A stretch of 29,480 bases of DNA, taken from positions 1 through 29,480 of IMG/VR virus record IMGVR_UViG_3300049259_000121, one strand, 5' to 3'. Below are positions 964 through 22,208 of this stretch, piece after piece. The translations under genes and the position numbers were made by a program. The DNA is from a virus. How positions within the stretch are numbered: position 1 is the stretch's first letter; the number at the start of each line of letters is the position of its first letter. The notes under the pieces were generated by a model. The model was not told where the DNA came from, searched no databases, and saw only the letters and a program-made list of their open reading frames with translations.

Positions 964-1030
964 CGACCCCTCCGGGCAGCAGGTGCTCGTTCGTCAGTTG
1001 GGCTGGGCACCCGGGGAGCCGACAGGATGA

Positions 1031-10671: not shown

Positions 10672-10791
10672 GTGTCTTTCCCTCCTCCAGCAAGAGGTTC
10701 TTTTGGTGGAGGGCTCCCCGCCGCCGGGTTGCGTCCCTCTCTTCACACATTGGCGGTGCTCCGCCGAGCGGTTGAACAGGCGTATGGCACG

Positions 10792-11881: not shown

Positions 11882-12613
11882 CTACTGCTTGGGTTTGGGC
11901 TTGCGCTTGAAGACAGGCTGATCGTCTTCGTCGTCGGCCTCGTCTTCGTCGTCCTCGGGGCCGTCGGAGGACTTCACCGCCACGCCGGGCGGCTCCTCTT
12001 CGTCTTCGTCTTCCTCGTCGTCCGGGATGCCGTCCTCGTCCTCGTCGGCGTCCGGATCCGCGCCACCGAACGGGGTACTCTCGCCCTCGGCGTCCGGATC
12101 CTCCTCGGGGTCGATCACGCCTTCCTGGGCGTCCTCGTCGGCCATGGTGTCCTGGGCCACGAGGGTGCCGTTCTCGCACGCCGGGCAGATGTCGCCCTCG
12201 GTGGCCCCCTCACCTTCTTCGGTCTCCTCGGCAGAGACGTCCGGCGCGGCCTCGTCGGTGTCGACGGTCTCCGGCGGCTCCTGCGGGAACTCGGTGCCAC
12301 AGTTGTTGCAGATGAGGGTGCCGCCCTCTTCCTGCTCGGCCATCCGGTCAGGGTCGGCCATCATCGACTGGTCGAACTGGTCCTGCTGGTGACGCAGGTC
12401 GATCCGGCTGGCCATGCCCAGGTCCGGGTCCTTGAACGGGCTCGGCGGCGCGACGTACCCGCAGATCGAGCAGCGGTGGCCGTCGTAGGCGTTGTCCTCG
12501 CCGCAGATCGGGCAGTTCTCGTCCCGGAGGGTGTCCACCTTCGGCGGAGCGATCGTCTCGCCGTAGGCGAGGTGGGGGACCCCGTTACGGGGCCGCTCGA
12601 AAGCTGGCACCAC
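11882..12613 (-). CDS. Zinc-ribbon, acidic-tail protein of the head cluster
   Basis: The preferred start is GTG 12613 after AAGGAG, overlapping the upstream gene by 29 bases; ATG 12655 after GGAG is possible but overlaps by 71. From the longer start, four cysteines form a ribbon (C48, C51, C62, C65: CPICGEDN then RCSICGYVAPP). The segment PPSPFKDPDLGMASRIDLR then follows. Two more CxxC pairs lie at 116/119 and 157/160. The last 90 residues are almost all Asp/Glu with a basic end, KRKPKPKQ. The acidic tail may mimic DNA or bind basic partners. It could assist scaffold or capsid assembly. No enzyme motif is present. An open -1 frame across its stop is described under findings. Confidence 0.75.
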   Translation of the reverse strand: MVPAFERPRNGVPHLAYGETIAPPKVDTLRDENCPICGEDNAYDGHRCSICGYVAPPSPFKDPDLGMASRIDLRHQQDQFDQSMMADPDRMAEQEEGGTLICNNCGTEFPQEPPETVDTDEAAPDVSAEETEEGEGATEGDICPACENGTLVAQDTMADEDAQEGVIDPEEDPDAEGESTPFGGADPDADEDEDGIPDDEEDEDEEEPPGVAVKSSDGPEDDEDEADDEDDQPVFKRKPKPKQ

Positions 12614-13673
12614 CTCGTCGGGACTCCTTGGCGTAGCCGGTGCCCGGCCCGGCATGTTCCATCTCCGGCAGGTGCTGCTTCCGGAAGTCCTGCCAGCCCT
12701 TCTCGGCGTTCTGCCGGGAGCGCTCGCGACCCTTGTTCAGCCGGTCGACGTTCGAGTCCGATCCGGCGGCGGCCTTCTCGCCCTCCTGGTTCAGTCGCTG
12801 GCGGACCAGCCAGGTGGTGGCCTGCACCGCGTGCCCGGGGATGTGCTCGCCCTCCTTCTGAGAGATCCGCTTGCCCGCCTCGTGATAGGCGTTCACCACG
12901 TGGTCGTAGCCCGCCGAGCGCGGAATGGTGCCGTCCTTGCGCTTGGACGCGGCCGCCACCGGCGCCGAGCCGTAGTCGTCGTTCGAGAGCCGCTTGCCGG
13001 TGGCCACGCCCAGGGCGTGCCGGTCGATGACCACGTGCGACTGGTGCTCGGGGTGGCCCTCGGGATGTTCGTCCCCGCCATGCTCGATCAGGTGGCCGAA
13101 GTCGCGGATCTTCGGACCGCTCACGGCCTCGTGCATGTGCCCGCCCGCGAGCACCTTGTCCGCCGAGGCCGCCTGGCTCTTCGAGGCGAACATGCCCGAG
13201 CCCGGCCCGCCGATGCCCTTGCCCTCGTGCAGCACGCGAGCGGCGTTGTGCATGTTGCCCGCCCAGCCCTGCTGCGGGCTGTAGATCGCCAGCATCGAGG
13301 CGCCCAGGTGCGCGTCGCCGTTCGGGTGCCGCAGGTCGTTCGGCTCCTTCGGCGGTTCCTCGTTGAACGGCTTGCCCGCCTGCAAGGCGTAGGACTTGCG
13401 ACGCTCGTGATCGGAGAGCTTCAGCAAGTGGTCCGCGTGATCCTGGAGCTTCTCCGGCCGGACCGGCGCGAGCTTGGCGATCGACTTGGCCACCAGGTGC
13501 GCGTCCGGGTACCAGCGCTTGCCCTGGGCCTTCTCGTCGTCGGTGGCCTGGTTCCAGTGGTCCACGATGTGGTCGGAGTGGACCGGGTTCGCCTGGAACC
13601 ATGGGTGCTCGCTCGGGTGGCTGTAGCGAGCCGCCTCGCGCACGATGAACTCCGAGAGCAGCGGGCCGGTCAT
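12585..13673 (-). CDS. Phage family protein with SPQ / GPK / DRHA motifs, function unknown
   Basis: ATG 13673 overlaps the protease stop in an ATGA junction, giving 362 residues. The core (about residues 120-300) has ordered motifs: AIYSPQQGWAGNMHNAARVL, then VSGPKIRDFGHLIE, then HVVIDRHALGVATGKRLSND. A helical end, TWLVRQRLNQEGE, follows. This SPQ...GPK...DRHA arrangement recurs in proteins from actinobacterial phages and plasmids whose function I do not know. Its helical spacing is reminiscent of helix-hairpin-helix glycosylase folds, but no catalytic proof is visible. The coupling to the maturation protease suggests it is made with head proteins. The C-terminus (about 320-362) is basic and probably disordered. 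Confidence 0.75.
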   Translation of the reverse strand: MTGPLLSEFIVREAARYSHPSEHPWFQANPVHSDHIVDHWNQATDDEKAQGKRWYPDAHLVAKSIAKLAPVRPEKLQDHADHLLKLSDHERRKSYALQAGKPFNEEPPKEPNDLRHPNGDAHLGASMLAIYSPQQGWAGNMHNAARVLHEGKGIGGPGSGMFASKSQAASADKVLAGGHMHEAVSGPKIRDFGHLIEHGGDEHPEGHPEHQSHVVIDRHALGVATGKRLSNDDYGSAPVAAASKRKDGTIPRSAGYDHVVNAYHEAGKRISQKEGEHIPGHAVQATTWLVRQRLNQEGEKAAAGSDSNVDRLNKGRERSRQNAEKGWQDFRKQHLPEMEHAGPGTGYAKESRRGGASFRAAP

Positions 13674-14452
13674 GCGCGGGTCCTTTCGTACCACTCGGCG
13701 AAGCGCGGGCCGAGGTCTTCAACGGGGGTGAACCGGCTCGGCGCGCGGCGCGAAGCCGTCCGCTGGAGTCCGGCGGTGAGATGCTCCAGGCCGGGCCCGG
13801 CGACGGGCGCGGAGGTGAACATGGCGGTGGGGTCGGCGGGGTCTTCGACGAGCAGACTGTTCTCGAAGAACCGCAGGCCGAAGCACTGCTCGAAGACGAA
13901 CTTGCCCGGCCCGCCGGAGGCGAAGTACTTCTTGCCCTTCATCCCCGGGATGTGCTGGCAGTAGCTGAAGGTGTCCTTGGCCTTGTTTCCGCAGGCCGAG
14001 CAGACCGAGTAGTCGACGTCGACTCCCATCGAGGTCTTGTCGATCCGCTTGAGCAGGACGGCGCGCGCCAGCCGGGGGAAGGTCTGGGCGTCGATCTCGT
14101 GCAGCCCCTCGACCCAGATGTCCGGGCTGCCGTCCGGCTGGCTGTGCTGGTGCAGCGCGGCGTCCACGATCACGCCCCGCGCGCGGCGATGGTTCTCGTT
14201 GTGGTGGTTGACGAAGGCGGGCTTGCCGAAGAAGGTCTTCCAGCCATAGCCGGGCTTCTCCGAGGCGATCTCCTCGGCCGGGAAGCCGTCCCAGTTGTCG
14301 TTCACCCGGTTCGAGATCATCCGAGATCGGGCGTAGATCATCCCGCGCCGGGGCTCGTACTGGAACTCGTGCCGCGCCGCGTTGCGGATCAGCCCCCGCC
14401 GGGGATGCTCCATCGCGTCGATGATCTGGGCGATCGCCCGCTTTTTCAGCAC
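13670..14452 (-). CDS. Capsid maturation (prohead) protease
   Basis: This 260-residue protein cleaves scaffold and capsid during head maturation. It uses GTG 14452. A hydrophobic core strand leads to FGKPAFVNHHNENHRRARGV, where H84 or H87 is the likely catalytic histidine. The following strand pair (GVIVDAALHQ and DIWVEGLHEIDAQTFPRLAR) leads to KTSMGVDVDYS with S141 as the likely nucleophile. His then Ser in a T-S-M-G turn is the arrangement of prohead serine proteases of the U9/S78-like type. Just after the serine lie C151, C154, C165 and H167, a probable zinc knuckle that appears as an addition. The order protease, then others, then capsid supports the call. Its ribosome site is buried in a hairpin. 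Confidence 0.8.
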   Translation of the reverse strand: MLKKRAIAQIIDAMEHPRRGLIRNAARHEFQYEPRRGMIYARSRMISNRVNDNWDGFPAEEIASEKPGYGWKTFFGKPAFVNHHNENHRRARGVIVDAALHQHSQPDGSPDIWVEGLHEIDAQTFPRLARAVLLKRIDKTSMGVDVDYSVCSACGNKAKDTFSYCQHIPGMKGKKYFASGGPGKFVFEQCFGLRFFENSLLVEDPADPTAMFTSAPVAGPGLEHLTAGLQRTASRRAPSRFTPVEDLGPRFAEWYERTRA

Positions 14453-14504
14453 ACCCGCTCACCTCGTTCCTGCTCGCCCATTGGGCGGCGCGAGGTGAGT
14501 GGGT
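14453..14504 (-). promoter_or_regulatory. Hairpin covering the ribosome site of the maturation protease
   Basis: Arms 14491-14504 and 14453-14466 pair at 13 of 14 positions, with one A-C mismatch in the coding direction. The loop holds a second small stem (CGCCC with GGGCG). The distal arm contains GAGGTGAG, the apparent ribosome site of the protease, whose GTG starts at 14452. The upstream gene stop is only seven bases before the hairpin, so ribosomes finishing that gene could open it. This suggests translational coupling or a delay of protease synthesis; a terminator is the alternative. Confidence 0.55.
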
Positions 14505-14510
14505 GACAGC

Positions 14511-15428
14511 TCAGCGACCGCCGAGCAGGCCTGCCGAGGTGGTCTGGGTGACCGTGGTCGTTTCTGGCGGCGGCGCCGAAGTCTGGTCGCAGGTGTACTG
14601 CGGGGCCTGCGGGTCGAAGTCGTGCGTGCGGGTGCAGTTCATCGTGCTGCCGTCGGCGAAGTGCTCCACCCAACTCAGGGGTGGCTGGCCGTCACTGCCT
14701 TTTGGGAGCGGTCCCACGTCCTGCGTGGTGCCGTCGGTGTAGGTCACCACCAAGTCACCGTTCACCTGGGCGGTGCTGGCGATCCCCCGGCCCGGCTTGC
14801 CGGTCTCGCCCACCTTGCCCTCGGCGCCGTCCTTGCCGACCACCTGGCCGACATCCTCGGTGGTGGCGTCGGAGTAGATCAGCGTCAGGTGGCCGTTCGT
14901 GATCGTCGAGCCGGTGATCCCGCGCCCGGCCGCGCCGGTCTCGCCCTTGATGACGCCCTTGTCCTCGGTGACACCGTCGGAATAGGTCACCCGGAAGTGG
15001 CCGTCCACGATCGAAGTGGAGGCGATCCCCCGGCCGTTCTGGCCCGAGACGCCTTGGGCACCCTGCTGCGGCGGGGGAGCGGCGGCCACGGCGGCGGCCT
15101 TGAGCTGGCGGGCCAGCTCGCACACCCCGCTCTCGGCCATCTTCTTGGCTGCATCGTCGCCGCGCAGGCACAGCGCCAGCGTGCTGTCCGCCGAGTTGTT
15201 CGCCACGGGGCTGATCGCTCCCAACTGGCTGACGGCGTGGTCCTTCGCCTGGGTCACCGCGTCGACCTTGGCCGTGGGGATGGCGAAGGCGGCGGCGAAG
15301 ATCGCTACACCGAGGCCCGCCATGCCCAGACGACTCAGGAAGCTGTTCCGGCGATCGCGGGAGCGCTGGCGTTTGTGCTCGTTGACGAGCAGATTCGCCT
15401 GAGGCGTCAACGTCGGATCAATGGACAT
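14511..15428 (-). CDS. Membrane-anchored collagen-like repeat protein
   Basis: ATG 15428 behind GAGGGGACTGG gives 305 residues and an 11-base overlap with the upstream gene. A basic N-terminus (NEHKRQRSRDRRNSFLSRLG) precedes one membrane helix (about 35-52). The positive-inside rule places the rest outside the cytoplasm. After an Ala-rich helical part come three tandem repeats (about residues 132-240). Each has GRGI, about six residues, then a strand pair ending YSDGTTEDVG and a short collagen-like GxxG link (GETGAAG, GKDGAEGKVGETG). Two cysteines (C265, C280) and a Pro/Thr tail ending GLLGGR follow. Collagen-like triplets are common in phage fibres, but a membrane anchor is unusual. The role may be surface display or exclusion of other phages; it is unknown. 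Confidence 0.75.
   Translation of the reverse strand: MSIDPTLTPQANLLVNEHKRQRSRDRRNSFLSRLGMAGLGVAIFAAAFAIPTAKVDAVTQAKDHAVSQLGAISPVANNSADSTLALCLRGDDAAKKMAESGVCELARQLKAAAVAAAPPPQQGAQGVSGQNGRGIASTSIVDGHFRVTYSDGVTEDKGVIKGETGAAGRGITGSTITNGHLTLIYSDATTEDVGQVVGKDGAEGKVGETGKPGRGIASTAQVNGDLVVTYTDGTTQDVGPLPKGSDGQPPLSWVEHFADGSTMNCTRTHDFDPQAPQYTCDQTSAPPPETTTVTQTTSAGLLGGR
14712..15035 (-). repeat. Three tandem GRGI...YSDGTTEDVG repeats
   Basis: Within the anchored collagen-like protein, three copies of about 36-45 residues begin at GRGIAS, GRGITG and GRGIAS and end at DGVTEDKG, DATTEDVG and DGTTQDVG. The copies are diverged in nucleotide sequence, so the repeat is maintained at protein level. Collagen-like glycine triplets link them. 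Confidence 0.75.
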
Positions 15429-15717
15429 GGCCAGTCCCCTCACCGGGCACCGGGATATCGTTCTGGATCAGCGCTCGCCGGTATCGAGCCGCCTCATCCT
15501 CGGCTTGATGCATCTTCTTGCGGTAGTCCTCGGTCTCCATCTCAGCCTCATCGGCGCGTTCGCGGGCCTTGCGGTTCTCGGCCTCCAGACGGGTGATAAC
15601 AGAGTCTTCCGACTCTATTTTTCCTCTGCGGCGGCCGTCTATCACCCTAGCCAGCGTGGCAATGAGAGTGGCCAGGCCGCCGCCGAAGACGGCGCCCAAG
15701 ATCAGTTCAAGACTCAC
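15418..15717 (-). CDS. Small membrane-anchored coiled-coil protein
   Basis: The product is 99 residues with an ATGA junction at its start. Residues 3-25 (LELILGAVFGGGLATLIATL) form a single N-terminal membrane helix, followed by a basic RRRGK segment. A charged coiled coil (about 36-85: VITRLEAENRKARERADEAE) follows, and the tail ends GHVH. The basic residues right after the helix suggest that the coiled coil is cytoplasmic. Inner-membrane spanin or holin-partner function can be imagined, but an i-spanin would face outward and the sign pattern argues against it. No family is recognised. It is in a four-gene membrane cassette. Confidence 0.75.
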   Translation of the reverse strand: MSLELILGAVFGGGLATLIATLARVIDGRRRGKIESEDSVITRLEAENRKARERADEAEMETEDYRKKMHQAEDEAARYRRALIQNDIPVPGEGTGHVH

Positions 15718-16358: not shown

Positions 16359-16391
16359 GATTACCTCCTTTGTCGCAAATTGGCACCAGAA

Positions 16392-16423
16392 TCAGGGCTA
16401 CGGACAGGCATCCGTAGCCCTGA
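16392..16423 (-). terminator. Perfect 13-bp hairpin terminator after the 139-residue gene
   Basis: Arms 16411-16423 and 16392-16404 pair perfectly over 13 bases with a six-base loop, 12 bases after the stop at 16436. The coding-direction sequence continues TTCTGG, so there is only a hint of a U-tract. It separates the virion-effector genes from the membrane cassette. Confidence 0.7.
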
Positions 16424-16869: not shown

Positions 16870-19701
16870 TCAGCTGAAGATGTCGGACGGATCGGCGTCC
16901 TGGTGGGCAAGGGCTGCTTCCAGCAGCTCGTAGTGGGTCCCCTCGATCTTGAGGTCCCCGAGGTTGCGCGCCTTGCGGCCGTCGTTCCCCTCGTTGATCA
17001 GCGCCTGTTGCTCGGCGAAGTCGAACTTGGCCGCCGCCTCCTTCGCGAGGTGGGCCTTCGCGGCCGCCGCGATGTCGTCGTCGGCTTTGCTCGCGCCCGC
17101 CGCCAGCTCCTGCCCGGCCGCCGTGCGCTGGAAGGCGGCGATCACGTCGGCCACCTCCTGGCTCTCCGGCACCGCGCTGGCGTGGTAACTGTTCGGCAGC
17201 GAACTGCCGCCGTCGAGCAGGTGGATGTTCGCGTCCTGGTCCGGCGCCACCTGTGCGGGCGGGTTGTCCGGGATGGGGTCCAGGTCGGCCGGGGTCGCCT
17301 CCATCGGGCGCATGGTCGCGTCCTCGTCGCCGTAGGTCGTCGGCAGAGCGGGCTCGGGTTCGTTGTGCAGCACCGCGTCGAAGCCCAGCGACGGAGTCAG
17401 CGGCTCGGGGTTCGCGTCCAGGTTGTTCCAGTTGTCCGGATCCTCCCCGGCGGCCCAACCGGTACTGGCCGGGTTGGTGGTGTTCGAGTGCGCGGGCTCG
17501 CTCGTACCGCGCCCCGGCTGCGGGTTGGTGTTCGAGATCGGGTCCCAGGCGCTGGCCTGCTTCGGCGCGTCCAGCGAAGCCTTGGTGATCTCGTTCCACG
17601 GCGTATGCGCCTTGACCTCGGGCCGGAGCGCCGGATTCTTCTTCGCGTGCTCGACCTCCCACCAGGCAGCCTGCTCGTGGCAGTCGCCCTTGGGGTCGTC
17701 CGGGTTAGGCACCACTCGGCCGTCCTTCATGGACAGGTCCTTTTCGGACGGGATCACCACGACGTGTCCCTGGTACACCCCGTTCGGAGAGGTCCAGGTG
17801 TGCTTGACCACGCCGTGCAGCGGGAACTCCTGGCCGATCTCTTCCTCAAATTCCCTGATCCCCGCGTGCAGGCTGGTGCGGTCGCCGTCCTCGTGGTGGC
17901 CTCCGGGTAGCTCCCAAAGACCTCGTGCCGGATCTTTCTCGTCGTCGAGCCCGCGCTGGAGCATCAGCACGCGGCCGGTGTCGTGTGCCTTCAGGGCGAT
18001 GCCGGAGACCTTCGGGCCGGGCGGGTTGCTCTTGGCGGCCTCGTGGTGGTGTTCGTGGCCCTCGCCGCCCAGCGGCGCCCCGCAGTGCGGACAGCGGTGG
18101 TGCTCGACGGCCTCTACGCCGATGAAGCCCCCGCAGTGCGGGCAGCGGCGCTCGCCGTCGTCTTCGTGGTGCTCGGCGGTCTTCCACAGCAGTACAGCCG
18201 TACGGTGACGCACTCCGGCGCGCACCAGGTTGCCGACGACCTCGGCCGGGTCGGCGTCCTCGTCGCGCAGCCGGGCGACCAGCGACCCGATCAGCGAGCC
18301 CTCGTAGGGCCGGGCAAAGACATGGGCGCCCTCGTCCGGGTCGTACCGGACGATCGATCGCTCGCGCGAGGTCGGCTCGGCGGGGTGGATCTCCTTGCCG
18401 AACATGCCCTGGCTCTGGGCCTCGAACTGGAGCGCCAGCGCGTGCGAGCACTTGCGGCCCTCGAACCGCTGGAAGCCGGGGCTGCGTTCGAAGGCGTAGG
18501 CCGCCCACTTGCAGCCGCAGGTCCAGTCGGCCACCTTGTGCGTGCCCGGCCGGTAGACCAGCAGTGCCTCGTAGGTGCCGTGGTCGCCCTTGACGTGGCC
18601 GCCGACGCCGTCGTTCGAGGCGATGACGATCGTCACCCCGCCCTCGGCGCGGATCCGCTTCGCCTTGCGTTGGACGTCGGCCCAGCTGGCCGTCACGTGG
18701 AAGCCAAACTCGCGATCACGCGCGGCCGTGCGCAGCATGGTCGCCGCCTCCGGGGTCAGCCTGCCTCGGAAAGCTCCTCCAGTTGGGCTTCGATCTTCTC
18801 GATGGCCCGCTCCACCTCCGGAGTTGACTCCTTCTGGTGCAGCTCGGCCAGCAGAGCTTCCAGCTTCTCCCGCGTGGGCGCCTCGATCGTCATCGGGTTC
18901 TCCGTCCAGGTGTCGCCCGACTACCCGAGCAGCGTCGCTCGGCTCGGGGTGATGATGATGCTGGGCATACAGTTCGCCGATCAGTTCCGACGCGCTCGTT
19001 GCGGCATAGGGCCCGACGTGGTTGATGAAGTGCTCGCGGTTGTCCAGCATCCAGCGGTACTTGCTGGACCCGTGCTTATACGGGGTCGTTCCGGGAATCG
19101 TCTTCGCGATCCTGTTGAGCAGGTGCGAGCGCTCCTCGTTGCCGCCGTCCTCGTCGTCGGCAGGGACTTCGTGCTTGCTGAAGTCCAGTGCGTGCCCACT
19201 TTCGTGGGTCAAGACGTGACTTTTCAACGGCGTGCTCCCGTGCTTGGAGAGGTATCCCTTGGAGATCACGACTCCGGGGATTTTCGGATCGTGCTCCATG
19301 CTCCGCGCCAAGCCACGGTGGACGCCGATCCTGTTCCGTTCCGGCGAAAAATACGCGACGGTGTTGTCCTCCATCGCCCCGTCATGTTTCGGGCTGGAGA
19401 TGCTGACATTCGGCCTTTTCCCGGCGGGCAGATAAACCAGGTGCCGGGACAGTTGCGCGGCAATGGGAGCCTTGACCTCGGGCTCCTCCGTGAGGTGGGT
19501 GTTCACCTCGAACTTCGGGACGCCGTGCTCTTGGTGGTGTACGGCCAGTGGGTGATGCCCCTCGCCGTACGCCTCGTCTTCGGGCCCCGGGTCGTCCTTC
19601 AGGTACTGGTAGTGCTGCGTGAGTTTGGTCGTGCGCTCTTCGTGCGTGTCGTGCGGGTGCAGCAGAGGCAATCCGGATTCGGGAGTCAGCTTCTGAATCA
19701 T
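16870..19701 (-). CDS. Giant multidomain protein: HExxH metallopeptidase, SWIM finger, zinc ribbon, Nudix hydrolase
   Basis: One open frame of 943 codons starts at ATG 19701 ([10 protein letters not shown]) in a TGATG junction. Residues about 80-255 resemble ATLF-type (anthrax-lethal-factor-like) zinc metallopeptidases. HESGH at 166-170 lies in LTHESGHALDF, and a downstream ELIGELYA helix supplies a likely third ligand (E243). After a poor-quality linker, a second part starts at an internal ATG (18738) with its own GGAGG site. This part has a SWIM finger (CGC...KCSH), a two-knuckle zinc ribbon (CPHC twice) and a Nudix domain. The Nudix box, GGHHEDGD then REFEEEIG, has one extra spacer residue and D for the first E. 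It ends with a helical tail (AEQQALINEG, IEGTHYELLEAAL). The linker is antisense-free but overlaps a 45-codon gene, so the metallopeptidase and the rest may be separate products. Confidence 0.72.
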   Translation of the reverse strand: MIQKLTPESGLPLLHPHDTHEERTTKLTQHYQYLKDDPGPEDEAYGEGHHPLAVHHQEHGVPKFEVNTHLTEEPEVKAPIAAQLSRHLVYLPAGKRPNVSISSPKHDGAMEDNTVAYFSPERNRIGVHRGLARSMEHDPKIPGVVISKGYLSKHGSTPLKSHVLTHESGHALDFSKHEVPADDEDGGNEERSHLLNRIAKTIPGTTPYKHGSSKYRWMLDNREHFINHVGPYAATSASELIGELYAQHHHHPEPSDAARVVGRHLDGEPDDDRGAHAGEAGSSAGRAAPEGVNSGGGAGHREDRSPTGGAFRGRLTPEAATMLRTAARDREFGFHVTASWADVQRKAKRIRAEGGVTIVIASNDGVGGHVKGDHGTYEALLVYRPGTHKVADWTCGCKWAAYAFERSPGFQRFEGRKCSHALALQFEAQSQGMFGKEIHPAEPTSRERSIVRYDPDEGAHVFARPYEGSLIGSLVARLRDEDADPAEVVGNLVRAGVRHRTAVLLWKTAEHHEDDGERRCPHCGGFIGVEAVEHHRCPHCGAPLGGEGHEHHHEAAKSNPPGPKVSGIALKAHDTGRVLMLQRGLDDEKDPARGLWELPGGHHEDGDRTSLHAGIREFEEEIGQEFPLHGVVKHTWTSPNGVYQGHVVVIPSEKDLSMKDGRVVPNPDDPKGDCHEQAAWWEVEHAKKNPALRPEVKAHTPWNEITKASLDAPKQASAWDPISNTNPQPGRGTSEPAHSNTTNPASTGWAAGEDPDNWNNLDANPEPLTPSLGFDAVLHNEPEPALPTTYGDEDATMRPMEATPADLDPIPDNPPAQVAPDQDANIHLLDGGSSLPNSYHASAVPESQEVADVIAAFQRTAAGQELAAGASKADDDIAAAAKAHLAKEAAAKFDFAEQQALINEGNDGRKARNLGDLKIEGTHYELLEAALAHQDADPSDIFS
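18736..18755 (-). promoter_or_regulatory. Internal ribosome site and start for the SWIM-Nudix product
   Basis: GGAGGCGGCGACC followed by ATG at 18738 lies inside the 943-codon frame and in phase with it. Initiation here would give a 622-residue product (MLRTAARDREFGFHVTASWA onward) containing SWIM finger C74/C76/C97/H99, zinc ribbon C199/C202/C216/C219 and Nudix residues about 244-330. The site begins immediately after the stop of the overlapping 45-codon gene, matching the normal gene-to-gene spacing in this genome. Confidence 0.55.
18756..18893 (-). CDS. 45-residue coiled-coil peptide overlapping the giant gene out of frame
   Basis: ATG 18893 has GGAGA seven bases upstream and encodes 45 residues with a clear heptad pattern: REKLEALLAELHQKE, then PEVERAIEKIEAQLEELSEA. 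The stop at 18756 is followed by GGAGG and the start of the SWIM-Nudix part. The ATG sits in an ATGA sequence whose TGA would end a frame different from the metallopeptidase frame. The same bases read in the giant frame give a Gly/Ala/Arg-rich linker without secondary structure. The coiled coil therefore looks like the selected reading. The peptide may be a partner of the neighbours, or it may have been the original C-terminus of the metallopeptidase before an indel. Confidence 0.5.
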   Translation of the reverse strand: MTIEAPTREKLEALLAELHQKESTPEVERAIEKIEAQLEELSEAG

Positions 19702-22208
19702 CACGCCCACTCCTCGTGAGGAACTTCGCGCACTACGCGCAGCGGATGCGGTGTCTTGAAGTCATTCGGGCCGTAGTCCTTCTTGAAGTCGCCGGTCGGC
19801 TCGACTTCGTACACCCGTCCCTTGTGACCGAGGTTGCGAGCGTAGGATGCGGCCGTTTCTCGGTCGGTGGTGAAGTAGTTGTGCGTCGATTTCGGCCCCT
19901 CGTCACCCCAGTTGTTCGGCTTCCGGCCGACAGTGATGTGATCACCAGGTCCGACCTTCGCCCGGCCGCCGTGGTAGAGCGGGCCTTCGATCTCCCGGTC
20001 CTGATCCTGGTAGCCGCTGGCCGTCTGCACGGTCTGGCGGTATGGGTGCCTCGCGCCATGCGTGACCATGTTGTTGCTCTGGGGACGATTCGCTGAGCCC
20101 GGACCGAGGACTTCGGCCATCTTGCTGGCGAGACGCGCCATGGCGCTCGCCGTCTCAGCGGCTTCCTTCTTCGGTCGCCGCTGAACCTGCTTGATGATCC
20201 CGTCGGCGTTGTGCCGGACTTCCTGGTTGTGGCCTCCCTTGTAGACCACCATCCCGTGCACGGTGTCCGGGCCGTTGTAGCCCCACTCGTGCACGTCACC
20301 CTCGGTGTGCAGGTGCTTGGCGGGGACCCGGGCGCGGATCACCGGGTAGTCGTTCTTGGAATCGCTCATTCGGCCTTCGCCGCGCGCGTAGTCCTTGGAG
20401 GTCGACACCCAATCGCCGGGGCGGATGCCTTTGTGCGCGTGCTCGGCAGGCAGCGCCCGGTAGACGTGGATCATTTTCTCAGGCTGATCTCGGGCAGCAC
20501 GGATCACGCTCGCGCTGTCGTGGAAGTGCTCCTGGCCGTAGTGGTAGTACTCCGGGTGCTCGTAGAAGTCCGGCATGTGCTTCTCGACGTCGTGCAGCGG
20601 AGCGCCATAGTCGGCGTCCGGCGCCTGGTGCTGCATCCGGTAGTCGTCTTCGTCAGATGCCACGCGGGCCTCCAGTGCGGCTGTCGTCGCACCGGATACT
20701 ACCTGAAGAGGTAGTTCAATGGATCCCTTTGCCTGCATGAGCGCCATCGGGCCGGGCTCGGAGATCGGGCACACCTGCTGCTGCCAGCGGGTCTCCCAGG
20801 GACACGGACCCCGGTCCTGTGGGATGCCCAGCACGTGACCACCGGCGCTGATGTCGCCGGGGTAGGTGCAGCGCGCTGTCCGGCGCCAGGTGCACCAGTC
20901 CGGCCCGTCTGCCGCCGCCGTCTTTTGGTGGCCGGGCGCCGAGCAGAAGCCGTCGTCGTGGTGGTCCAGCTCATGCCGGAGCGCCTCGGCCTCGTCGTCG
21001 GTGTCGAAACCGCAGCCCAGGTACGCGCCCGCCAGCGCCGAGTACTTCTTCAGCGAGCGCGGCAGGCGCTTGGAGATCGGCGACCATTCGGGCTCGGGGA
21101 ACCCGTGCTTGTCGGCGTCGTAAACGTGGCCTTCGACCTGCTTGTCCCCGCGCAGCATCGCGGCGGCAGTCCGGTGGTGGCCGTCCAGCGTGTAGTAGTC
21201 GTCGTGGTGCTTGACGAAGATCGGCCGGTCGTTGGCCGGGTAGTTCGGCCGCCCGCTGCCCGACTTGCGCCCGGGGTCGTTCAGGTACGCGTCAACACCC
21301 CGCTTCGTCACACGCGGCTGCGTCGCGTAGACGTTGCCGCCGCCCAGCGGGACCGGCCGGATTTCGCCCTTGGCGTGCCAGTGCGCGAAGTCGTTCTCGC
21401 GACCGCTGTAGCCCCGGAACTCGTGCACACCAGCATGCGCACCGACCGCCTGCTCGTCGTCCCAGTCGGGGTTGTCGCCGTGGTCGGGGAAGTTCGTCTT
21501 CTGGGATTCGACGTACCCGGCGAAGCCCACTCGCTTGGTCGGGATCGTCTTGGTGTCGTCCTCCGGTTCGGCGGCCGCCGTGGTGCTCACGCGCGAGTCG
21601 AAGTCGAGGAAGTCGTTGATCCCGGCCTGCCCGCCCGCTCCGGACGCGCCCGAGCGCGGATCGACTGCCGGGGACGGGTGGTTCGAGGGGTCGCCGATCA
21701 GCTCGGGCGTCCACTGCGCGCCCTCGTGCGCGGACATCGTGCCGCCGCAGGTCGCGCAGGTGGCCTGCCGGACGCGGCCGTTGTCCGTCAGGTCCTTGAA
21801 GTCGGTCGAGCCGCAGTACGAGCAGCTGGACGGTCCGTCGCCGCCGGGCTCATCATGGTCCTCGGCATCCGCTTCCTGGCGCTCTTGACTCAACGTCGCC
21901 GTGAAGGTCATCTTGCCCGGGTCCGGCCGTTCGTCGAGGATGCCACCCAACTCGGGGTAATCCTCGACGGCCAGGTGCACTCCGGCGGCAGACCGACTGG
22001 TCGGCATCTTGGACAGCATCGAGGCGCTGTAGTTGCCGCCGCCCATGCCGTTGTCGAGCTTGACGACGTAGTTCTCCGCGCCCGCGATCGGACCGTCTTC
22101 GACCTGCTCGACCACGCCCGGGAATCCGTCGATGGTCATGACGTGCTCGCCCGGCTGGTACTCCCAGTAGTCCTCGGGACGAACGCCGCCGACGTGCCGC
22201 GTGGTCAT
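19701..22208 (-). CDS. Multidomain effector-like protein: zinc ribbon, ParB-like domain and two ADP-ribosyltransferase-like domains
   Basis: ATG 22208 follows GAGGAGGCCAC; the product has 835 residues. Residues about 15-70 look like an SH3/KOW barrel ([20 protein letters not shown]). C129, C132, C151 and C154 form a zinc ribbon. Residues about 293-365 are ParB/Srx-like, with [18 protein letters not shown] carrying the GHHR motif. Residues about 437-485 are cysteine-rich, ending CPISEPGP. Residues about 540-665 are an R-S-E ADP-ribosyltransferase-like domain (VYRALPA with R584, VSTSKDYA with S602-S604, HEWGY with E641). Residues about 742-835 match rifampin ADP-ribosyltransferase Arr (PLYHGG with H746, [24 protein letters not shown]). 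Such proteins may be packaged and injected like T4 Alt, but no MuF domain is visible. Targets are unknown. Confidence 0.8.

Follow-up and report, generated by a model that had tools for sequence, protein, structure and literature searches.

The head maturation protease gene of a large actinobacterial virus is directly preceded by an inverted repeat that contains its ribosome-binding site (RBS), which raises the question of when and from which transcript the protease can be translated. The locus lies in IMG/VR virus record IMGVR_UViG_3300049259_000121, of which positions 1 to 29,480 were analysed (29,480 nucleotides, the window in the following). The protease was assigned by PHROG matches to phrog_2774 (E 1.2e-45) and phrog_18299, head maturation protease (E 1.2e-24), and had no match in Pfam; the matches of the upstream gene to phrog_13565 (E 2.2e-9) and phrog_1806 (E 4.8e-5) were weak. 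The stretch from 11882 to 14452 is occupied by three separate genes with small overlaps, which encode the protease, a DUF7178 protein (PF23802) and a zinc-ribbon-like protein. The long phrog_2774 profile (1263 aa) covers parts of both the protease and the zinc-ribbon-like protein, and in the relatives L012 and L013 the protease and the DUF7178 protein are fused in one long frame. In the structural region, a 946-aa frame (16870-19710) carries a NUDIX domain at residues 577-696 (PF00293, E 3.2e-12). A LysM-like gene is annotated in front of the protease homologue in Pleione, Settecandela, Tonenili and E3 (among L207-L212 and L294), and in the window this position is taken by a collagen-like and not a LysM-like protein.

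Table 1. Position of the features at the protease start and of the two-block motif copies in the window.
Feature	Positions	Strand	Basis or remark
Head maturation protease gene, 260 aa, GTG start	13670..14452	-	PHROG matches
Upstream gene, collagen-like / tail-like	14511..15443	-	Weak PHROG matches; ORF bounds, true start uncertain
TGA stop of upstream gene	14511..14513	-	Sequence and ORF list
Block A, CTGTC, putative upstream promoter element	14505..14509	-	Two-block motif, between stop and 5' arm
5' arm of hairpin	14491..14504	-	Inside 20-nt motif spacer 14504-14485
Block B, CCAATGGGCGAGC, apical loop, putative downstream promoter element	14472..14484	-	Invariant in six loci
3' arm of hairpin	14453..14466	-	Pairing, fold
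Shine-Dalgarno (SD) GAGGTGAG of GTG 14452	14458..14465	-	Sequestered in 3' arm
Second motif copy, CTGTC-N20-CAATTT	16377..16407	-	Regex scan
Third motif copy, CTGTT ... CCAATGT	10747..10779	-	Regex scan
Fourth motif copy, CTGTC-N20-CAACTG	995..1025	-	Regex scan

The arms ACCCACTCACCTCG (14504-14491) and CGAGGTGAGCGGGT (14466-14453) of the minus strand form 13 of 14 pairs with one A.C mismatch, and the 3' arm comprises the 14 bases immediately preceding the start codon GTG 14452. A preliminary description of the locus had reported this pairing, the ribosome site in the 3' arm and a stop codon just upstream of the 5' arm, all of which was confirmed, with six bases between TGA 14513-14511 and the arm. 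The 81-nt fold has -40.2 kcal/mol compared to -28.2 ± 3.4 kcal/mol in 200 dinucleotide shuffles (z -3.49), none of which was as good. With 28.1 kcal/mol, the cost of opening the protease RBS was the highest of 29 crudely called genes in the window (runner-up 17.6, mean 12.3, sd 4.6 kcal/mol). Chance pairing in GC-rich DNA does produce costly structures, as shuffled upstream parts still gave mean opening costs of 16.7-22.6 kcal/mol at six loci, but in view of this rank, the fold z and the compensatory changes described below it is scarcely credible as an explanation. A strong GC-rich hairpin between two genes could also be an RNA processing site or a weak terminator, the overlap with the SD being secondary. 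An intrinsic terminator is however not apparent, as a U-tract is absent and GTGCTGAAAAAG follows directly after the 3' arm; the hairpin end is moreover fixed to the start codon in six of six sequences and the SD-core pairs are invariant, so that this reading is very unlikely. Rfam gave no matches in the window at gathering score, and at the hairpin locus only sub-threshold matches, mainly to microRNA families.

Close relatives of the protease were found on five viral contigs (L002-L006, 71-97% identity), and none were found in genome_contigs. A hairpin ending at the start codon was present in all five. A comparison of compensatory changes had been proposed in the preliminary description, and covariation was indeed found. 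Pairs were taken from single-sequence folds, with positions counted backward from the start codon, and the count covered the 16 pair positions present in three or more of the six. Seven of these changed on both sides, two on one side, and seven, including the five SD-core pairs, were invariant; the six sequences amount to about four lineages, given that the window, L002 and L003 are near-identical, and one of the seven both-sided positions (-20) belongs to the inner helix, where the registers differ. The true pairing of 5' and 3' arms ranked first of 120 permutations (five sequences, near-duplicate L002 omitted). RNAalifold on a MAFFT alignment showed both-sided change in just 2 of 21 pairs because MAFFT misregisters the arms, and pairs from single-sequence folds were therefore used instead. 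Four-fold degenerate sites of the protease agreed at 47-74% among five of the sequences; the loop word GCMGCCCAATGRRYGAGC and CTGT[CT] after the stop were kept in all six loci. In the distant relatives L012 and L013, another small gene precedes the protease and the loop word is absent. On the strength of folds and covariation, the hairpin is real and the protease SD is predicted to be sequestered on RNA arriving from upstream.

The preliminary description had also proposed that protease synthesis depends on translation of the upstream gene and is thereby delayed or limited. While delay or limitation is likely, the dependence is less supported. In such translational coupling, the ribosome finishing the upstream gene would melt the hairpin, and the amount of protease would scale with that of the upstream protein. 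In each of the six folds the main stem follows the stop at a distance of 3-7 nt, and models of coupling by RNA unfolding and scanning are established (PMC12548453). However, when the stop and the next 9 nt were held open in the fold, 9-11 outer pairs persisted in six of six sequences, which cover the SD completely in the window, L002, L003 and L004 and partially in L005 and L006. Coupling also leaves unexplained why the loop is invariant and why a two-block motif described below stands at other genes. It is unlikely as the main mechanism and could possibly act as an extra layer on top of the promoter-based control proposed below.

The conserved part of the structure, overlooked in the preliminary description, is its loop. 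With CTGTC (14509-14505) as the other half, it makes up a motif of two blocks. The form found here, CTGTC-N20-CCAATGRRYGAG, is a variant of CTGTC-N20-GAAGGGGTGA. The 5' arm falls within the spacer at each of the six loci, where block B forms the loop and the SD lies in the 3' arm. A regex scan of the window returned four intergenic copies on the coding strand (16407, 14509, 10779 and 1025), one match inside a gene (23995) and none on the opposite strand.

Further protease loci were collected by a major capsid protein search, of which the best 80 loci were kept. Among 82 loci examined, 44 had a protease match, 42 of them with a usable start, leaving out 38 loci without a protease match and two without a usable start. 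Six near-duplicates (L012, L013, L233, L237, L244 and L283) were dropped from the 42 before scoring; L219 and L220 in the scored set still have common upstream sequence. The hairpin is missing from most of the protease loci, at which CTGTC is still followed, after a spacer of about 20 nt, by a block resembling GAAGGGGTGAG or CAATGRRYGAG. The motif scored at least 9/11 at 28 of 37 protease starts including the window and 7-8 at four, with no convincing site at the other five, values that are flattered because each is the maximum over several offsets and two consensus forms.

This retention of both blocks bears on whether a regulatory protein or a small RNA binds the loop and thereby stabilises or opens the hairpin, with CTGTC-N20-block B acting as an RNA element. 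Such a role would suit a loop that is invariant over lineages with differing stems. It was demoted since the loop is half of a motif that most relatives keep without the hairpin; there is also no Rfam family, and words complementary to the loop did not exceed the reversed-pattern control in the five hairpin-bearing records, so that an antisense partner was rejected and the whole reading is rather improbable. In G007, which has no hairpin, such words numbered 19 versus 7 in the control. A leader peptide starting at the loop ATG was likewise discarded: it shares the reading frame of the protease in only some of the sequences, has no SD, and in L004 lacks a nearby stop. The same loop word occurs in a perfect hairpin with an unrelated stem at L031:5299-5336; this hairpin is antisense to its neighbours, has no CTGTC at the right distance and was regarded as coincidence. 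Matches from a looser sequence-pattern search looked like chance.

The motif proved to be strongly directional. The window and 79 partly redundant loci contain 101 copies (89 distinct) on the late strand and 11 on the opposite one. Ten related contigs of 151-166 kb were scanned for CTGTC-N20-GAAGGGGTGA with up to two mismatches, which gave 77 copies on the capsid strand, two on the opposite strand, both overlapping a forward copy, and none for the reversed-pattern control. Copies were present in nine of the ten genomes, one of which has 15 perfect copies, and G007 has none at this threshold. At two sites, G014:C1:84718-84755 and G011:C1:102259-102296, the spacer is complementary to its own block B, so that they are near-matches on both strands and would fold a hairpin over block B.

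Spaced four-letter pairs were also counted without a seed upstream of annotated genes in isolated phages. CTGT-N21-GAAG ranked first in Myrna (5 of 22 regions), tied with its own one-base shift. It also reached the top ten in Pleione (3 of 30 regions), where it was tied with others, and CTGT-N20-TCAA did so in the first stretch of E3 (3 of 29). In Finch, Stormageddon and the second E3 stretch, a spaced CTGT pair was outside the top ten. The reverse lists of this count are no control, as they hold complement words of the same regions. In the window's own clade the motif is far rarer and block B differs from the family consensus. Genome-wide, the clade form with up to three mismatches was not clearly above the control, with 16 and 15 matches on the two strands of G001 and 5 and 17 on those of G003, compared to 11 and 9 in the control in both cases. 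Matches with no or one mismatch stand out, being on the protease strand in five of five records; CTGTA-N20-CCAATGTCCGA in G001 and G003 is an example.

Directionality and fixed spacing suggest a promoter, and we infer that CTGTC-N20-block B would be the late promoter of this family, perhaps read by a phage sigma-like factor. A strong terminator-like hairpin stands directly before the motif at 11 of 88 sites compared to 4 of 264 random places (p 8e-5; 12 of 88 versus 10 of 264 at a looser cut), which places the motif at starts of transcription units. One protein resembling sigma-70 region 4 was detected in 11 of 12 family genomes by Pfam search, exceeding the cut-off in six of them; the match of the near twin G001 is below it (20.4 bits), and in G003 no such domain was found. 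E3 gp160, annotated as sigma-70 region-4-like, itself scored 24.4 against a cut-off of 25.7 and has direct protein matches in only two of the 12 family genomes. Several relatives have a block B that merges with the SD (GAAGGGGTGGAGGTG), so that a transcript start that keeps the SD would have to fall in block B there. Transcription would accordingly begin in or just after block B, as far as the sequences indicate.

From this we consider it probable that a late promoter embedded in the RBS hairpin splits it and thereby gates translation of the protease. A read-through mRNA from the upstream gene would carry the 5' arm, fold and hide the SD, and would yield little protease. An mRNA begun at the embedded promoter, with its start between 14490 and 14466, would lack the 5' arm, retain the SD and be translated. 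The head protease would then appear only when the late promoter fires and not from run-on transcription. A promoter within the hairpin accounts both for the invariant loop and for the presence of the motif before other late genes of the family, where CTGTC-N20-block B also stands.

The two transcripts were compared by modelling, on the assumption that the promoter's own RNA starts 33 nt downstream of the initial C of CTGTC. The modelled RBS opening cost fell from 29.4 kcal/mol on the long RNA to 6.6 kcal/mol on the own-promoter RNA in the window, and from 23.9-30.0 to 5.5-8.4 kcal/mol over the six loci on losing the 5' arm, a drop that is partly trivial after truncation. Shuffling only the sequence upstream of block B is the fairer test. 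It gave z 2.65 for the window (3 of 200 shuffles as high) and z 2.7-3.1 for four relatives, and for L019 just z 1.2 (25 of 200 as high); the test set consisted of 26 chosen cases, taken partly from the top of the opening-cost ranking.

Recurrence of the arrangement was studied in 45-50 kb stretches of the isolated phages Pleione, Myrna, E3, Finch and Stormageddon. The ranking of their annotated genes took only the read-through opening cost and not the motif into account, and the motif matrix was trained only on uncultured genomes and the window, so that these phages were held out. Ten genes reached a matrix score of at least 8 in the forward and none in the reverse direction, and the excess shrank at lower cuts (14 versus 6 at 6 and 32 versus 18 at 2). 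The upstream gap was 28 nt or longer for 142 genes, and among these a motif score of at least 6 was reached by 6 of 14 genes with opening cost of 20 or more and by 7 of 128 others (p 3.5e-4); at opening cost of 25 or more, two of five genes had the motif (p 0.07). Genes with the motif had a mean opening cost of 18.1 and the others one of 11.2 (p 0.002; p 0.013 and 0.011 at cuts 4 and 8). Over all isolated-phage genes, motif score and opening cost were uncorrelated (Spearman 0.06, p 0.28), and at most a subset of promoters thus bears such a hairpin.

The six costly genes with a motif are Myrna gp110 and gp96, Pleione gp99 and gp108, E3 gp84 (lipase) and Finch 20596, the last of which is possibly a terminator at a doubtful TTG start. 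Judged by sequence, the arrangement of hairpin and scored motif is repeated at Myrna gp110, Pleione gp99 and gp108 and E3 gp84. The hairpins of Pleione gp79 and gp80 and of E3 gp98 (endolysin) are among the strongest, with loop words that resemble block B by eye (GAATAGGTAGAG, TAACAGGTAGAGG and CAATTCGTG, respectively) and low matrix scores (2.0, -4.6 and -9.2). Upstream shuffling gave z 6.7, 4.8, 3.4 and 2.9 for Pleione gp79, gp80, gp99 and gp108, 5.8 for Myrna gp110, and 5.7 and 3.5 for E3 gp84 and gp98, which argues for 5' sides that are specifically complementary in these genes; Myrna gp96 reached 1.9, and no effect was seen at E3 16599 and Myrna 34037. Annotated starts at Myrna 27012 (L294) and Finch 21508 and 20195 (L293) lie on terminator-like hairpins, rank high in opening cost and may be wrong.

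In front of the LysM-like gene Pleione gp99, the stem GTTCCTCCTCGAA/TTCGAGGAGGAAC lies within the spacer and the SD inside the stem. A stem is kept at this place in five further Bxz1-group records and in Myrna; for Breeniome, the ATG homologous to that of Pleione was taken as start, the annotated one lying 27 nt upstream. Covariation inside the Bxz1 group is limited: for gp79, 176 of 190 are at least 99% identical, and for gp99 87 of 190, with the other 103 at 90-95%.

Several other relatives show different structures at the protease. A terminator-like hairpin with a score of at least 11 stands directly before CTGTC at 7 of 33 protease loci, the motif of L256 being doubtful, and weaker ones (8.0-8.5) are found in the window and two of its five relatives. 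L284 and L290 have a different RBS hairpin with an arm overlapping CTGTT (z 2.1 and 3.2). The end of the upstream gene in L221 can pair with the SD, not above shuffles (z 0.8), and L241 and L248 showed no effect in the upstream-shuffle test. These relatives may solve the same read-through problem in other ways, and selection would appear to keep read-through from yielding protease.

On balance, we lean slightly towards a more general reading. Large actinobacteriophages of the Bxz1, Myrna and E3 type and their uncultured relatives would have in common an undescribed late promoter of the CTGTC-N20-[GC]AA[GT] type, perhaps together with a sigma-like protein. This promoter would have been wrapped repeatedly in RBS-hiding hairpins, often with the spacer as the inhibitory arm, silencing potentially harmful late enzymes (head protease, LysM-like protein or endolysin, lipase) until it fires, like the T4 lysozyme switch. 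If true, a much-studied phage group would gain a testable late promoter and a sigma-like candidate, the timing switch of T4 gene e would be found reused at several genes of unrelated phages, and a compact expression switch insensitive to read-through transcription would be at hand. A literature search that covered few subscription papers returned no description of the motif or the device in these phages. Cluster K mycobacteriophages also have inverted-repeat elements near gene starts, their extended start-associated sequences, which differ from the window hairpin in sequence and phage group.

As in coupling by RNA unfolding (PMC12548453), the downstream RBS is closed by a structure shortly after the upstream stop. 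The present case differs in that a conserved motif divides the structure in two and in that a ribosome halted at the stop would fall short of opening the whole SD in four of six sequences. The hairpin would rather work by analogy to T4 gene e. In T4 genes e, soc, 49 and I-TevI, the SD is hidden in long early RNA, and RNA from a late promoter located in the DNA of the 5' strand is without that strand; the structure cuts lysozyme synthesis from gene e about 100-fold (PMC3014915). A late promoter within an RBS-sequestering structure is also given for I-TevI, segB and Aeh1 mobE (PMC2988022) and for I-TevII and I-TevIII (PMC3014915 and PMC2988022). The present locus is like gene e in that the SD lies in a stable helix on upstream RNA, here a predicted fold backed by covariation. 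A strand-specific two-block motif lies at the corresponding place in all six loci, and RNA begun there, if the motif is indeed the promoter, would lack the 5' strand as in T4. The T4-type genes include a lysis enzyme, whereas a head-protease gene is concerned here. The arrangement differs from T4 in that the phages are unrelated, that the putative promoter is CTGTC-N20-block B rather than TATAAATA, and that the promoter spacer itself serves as the 5' strand.
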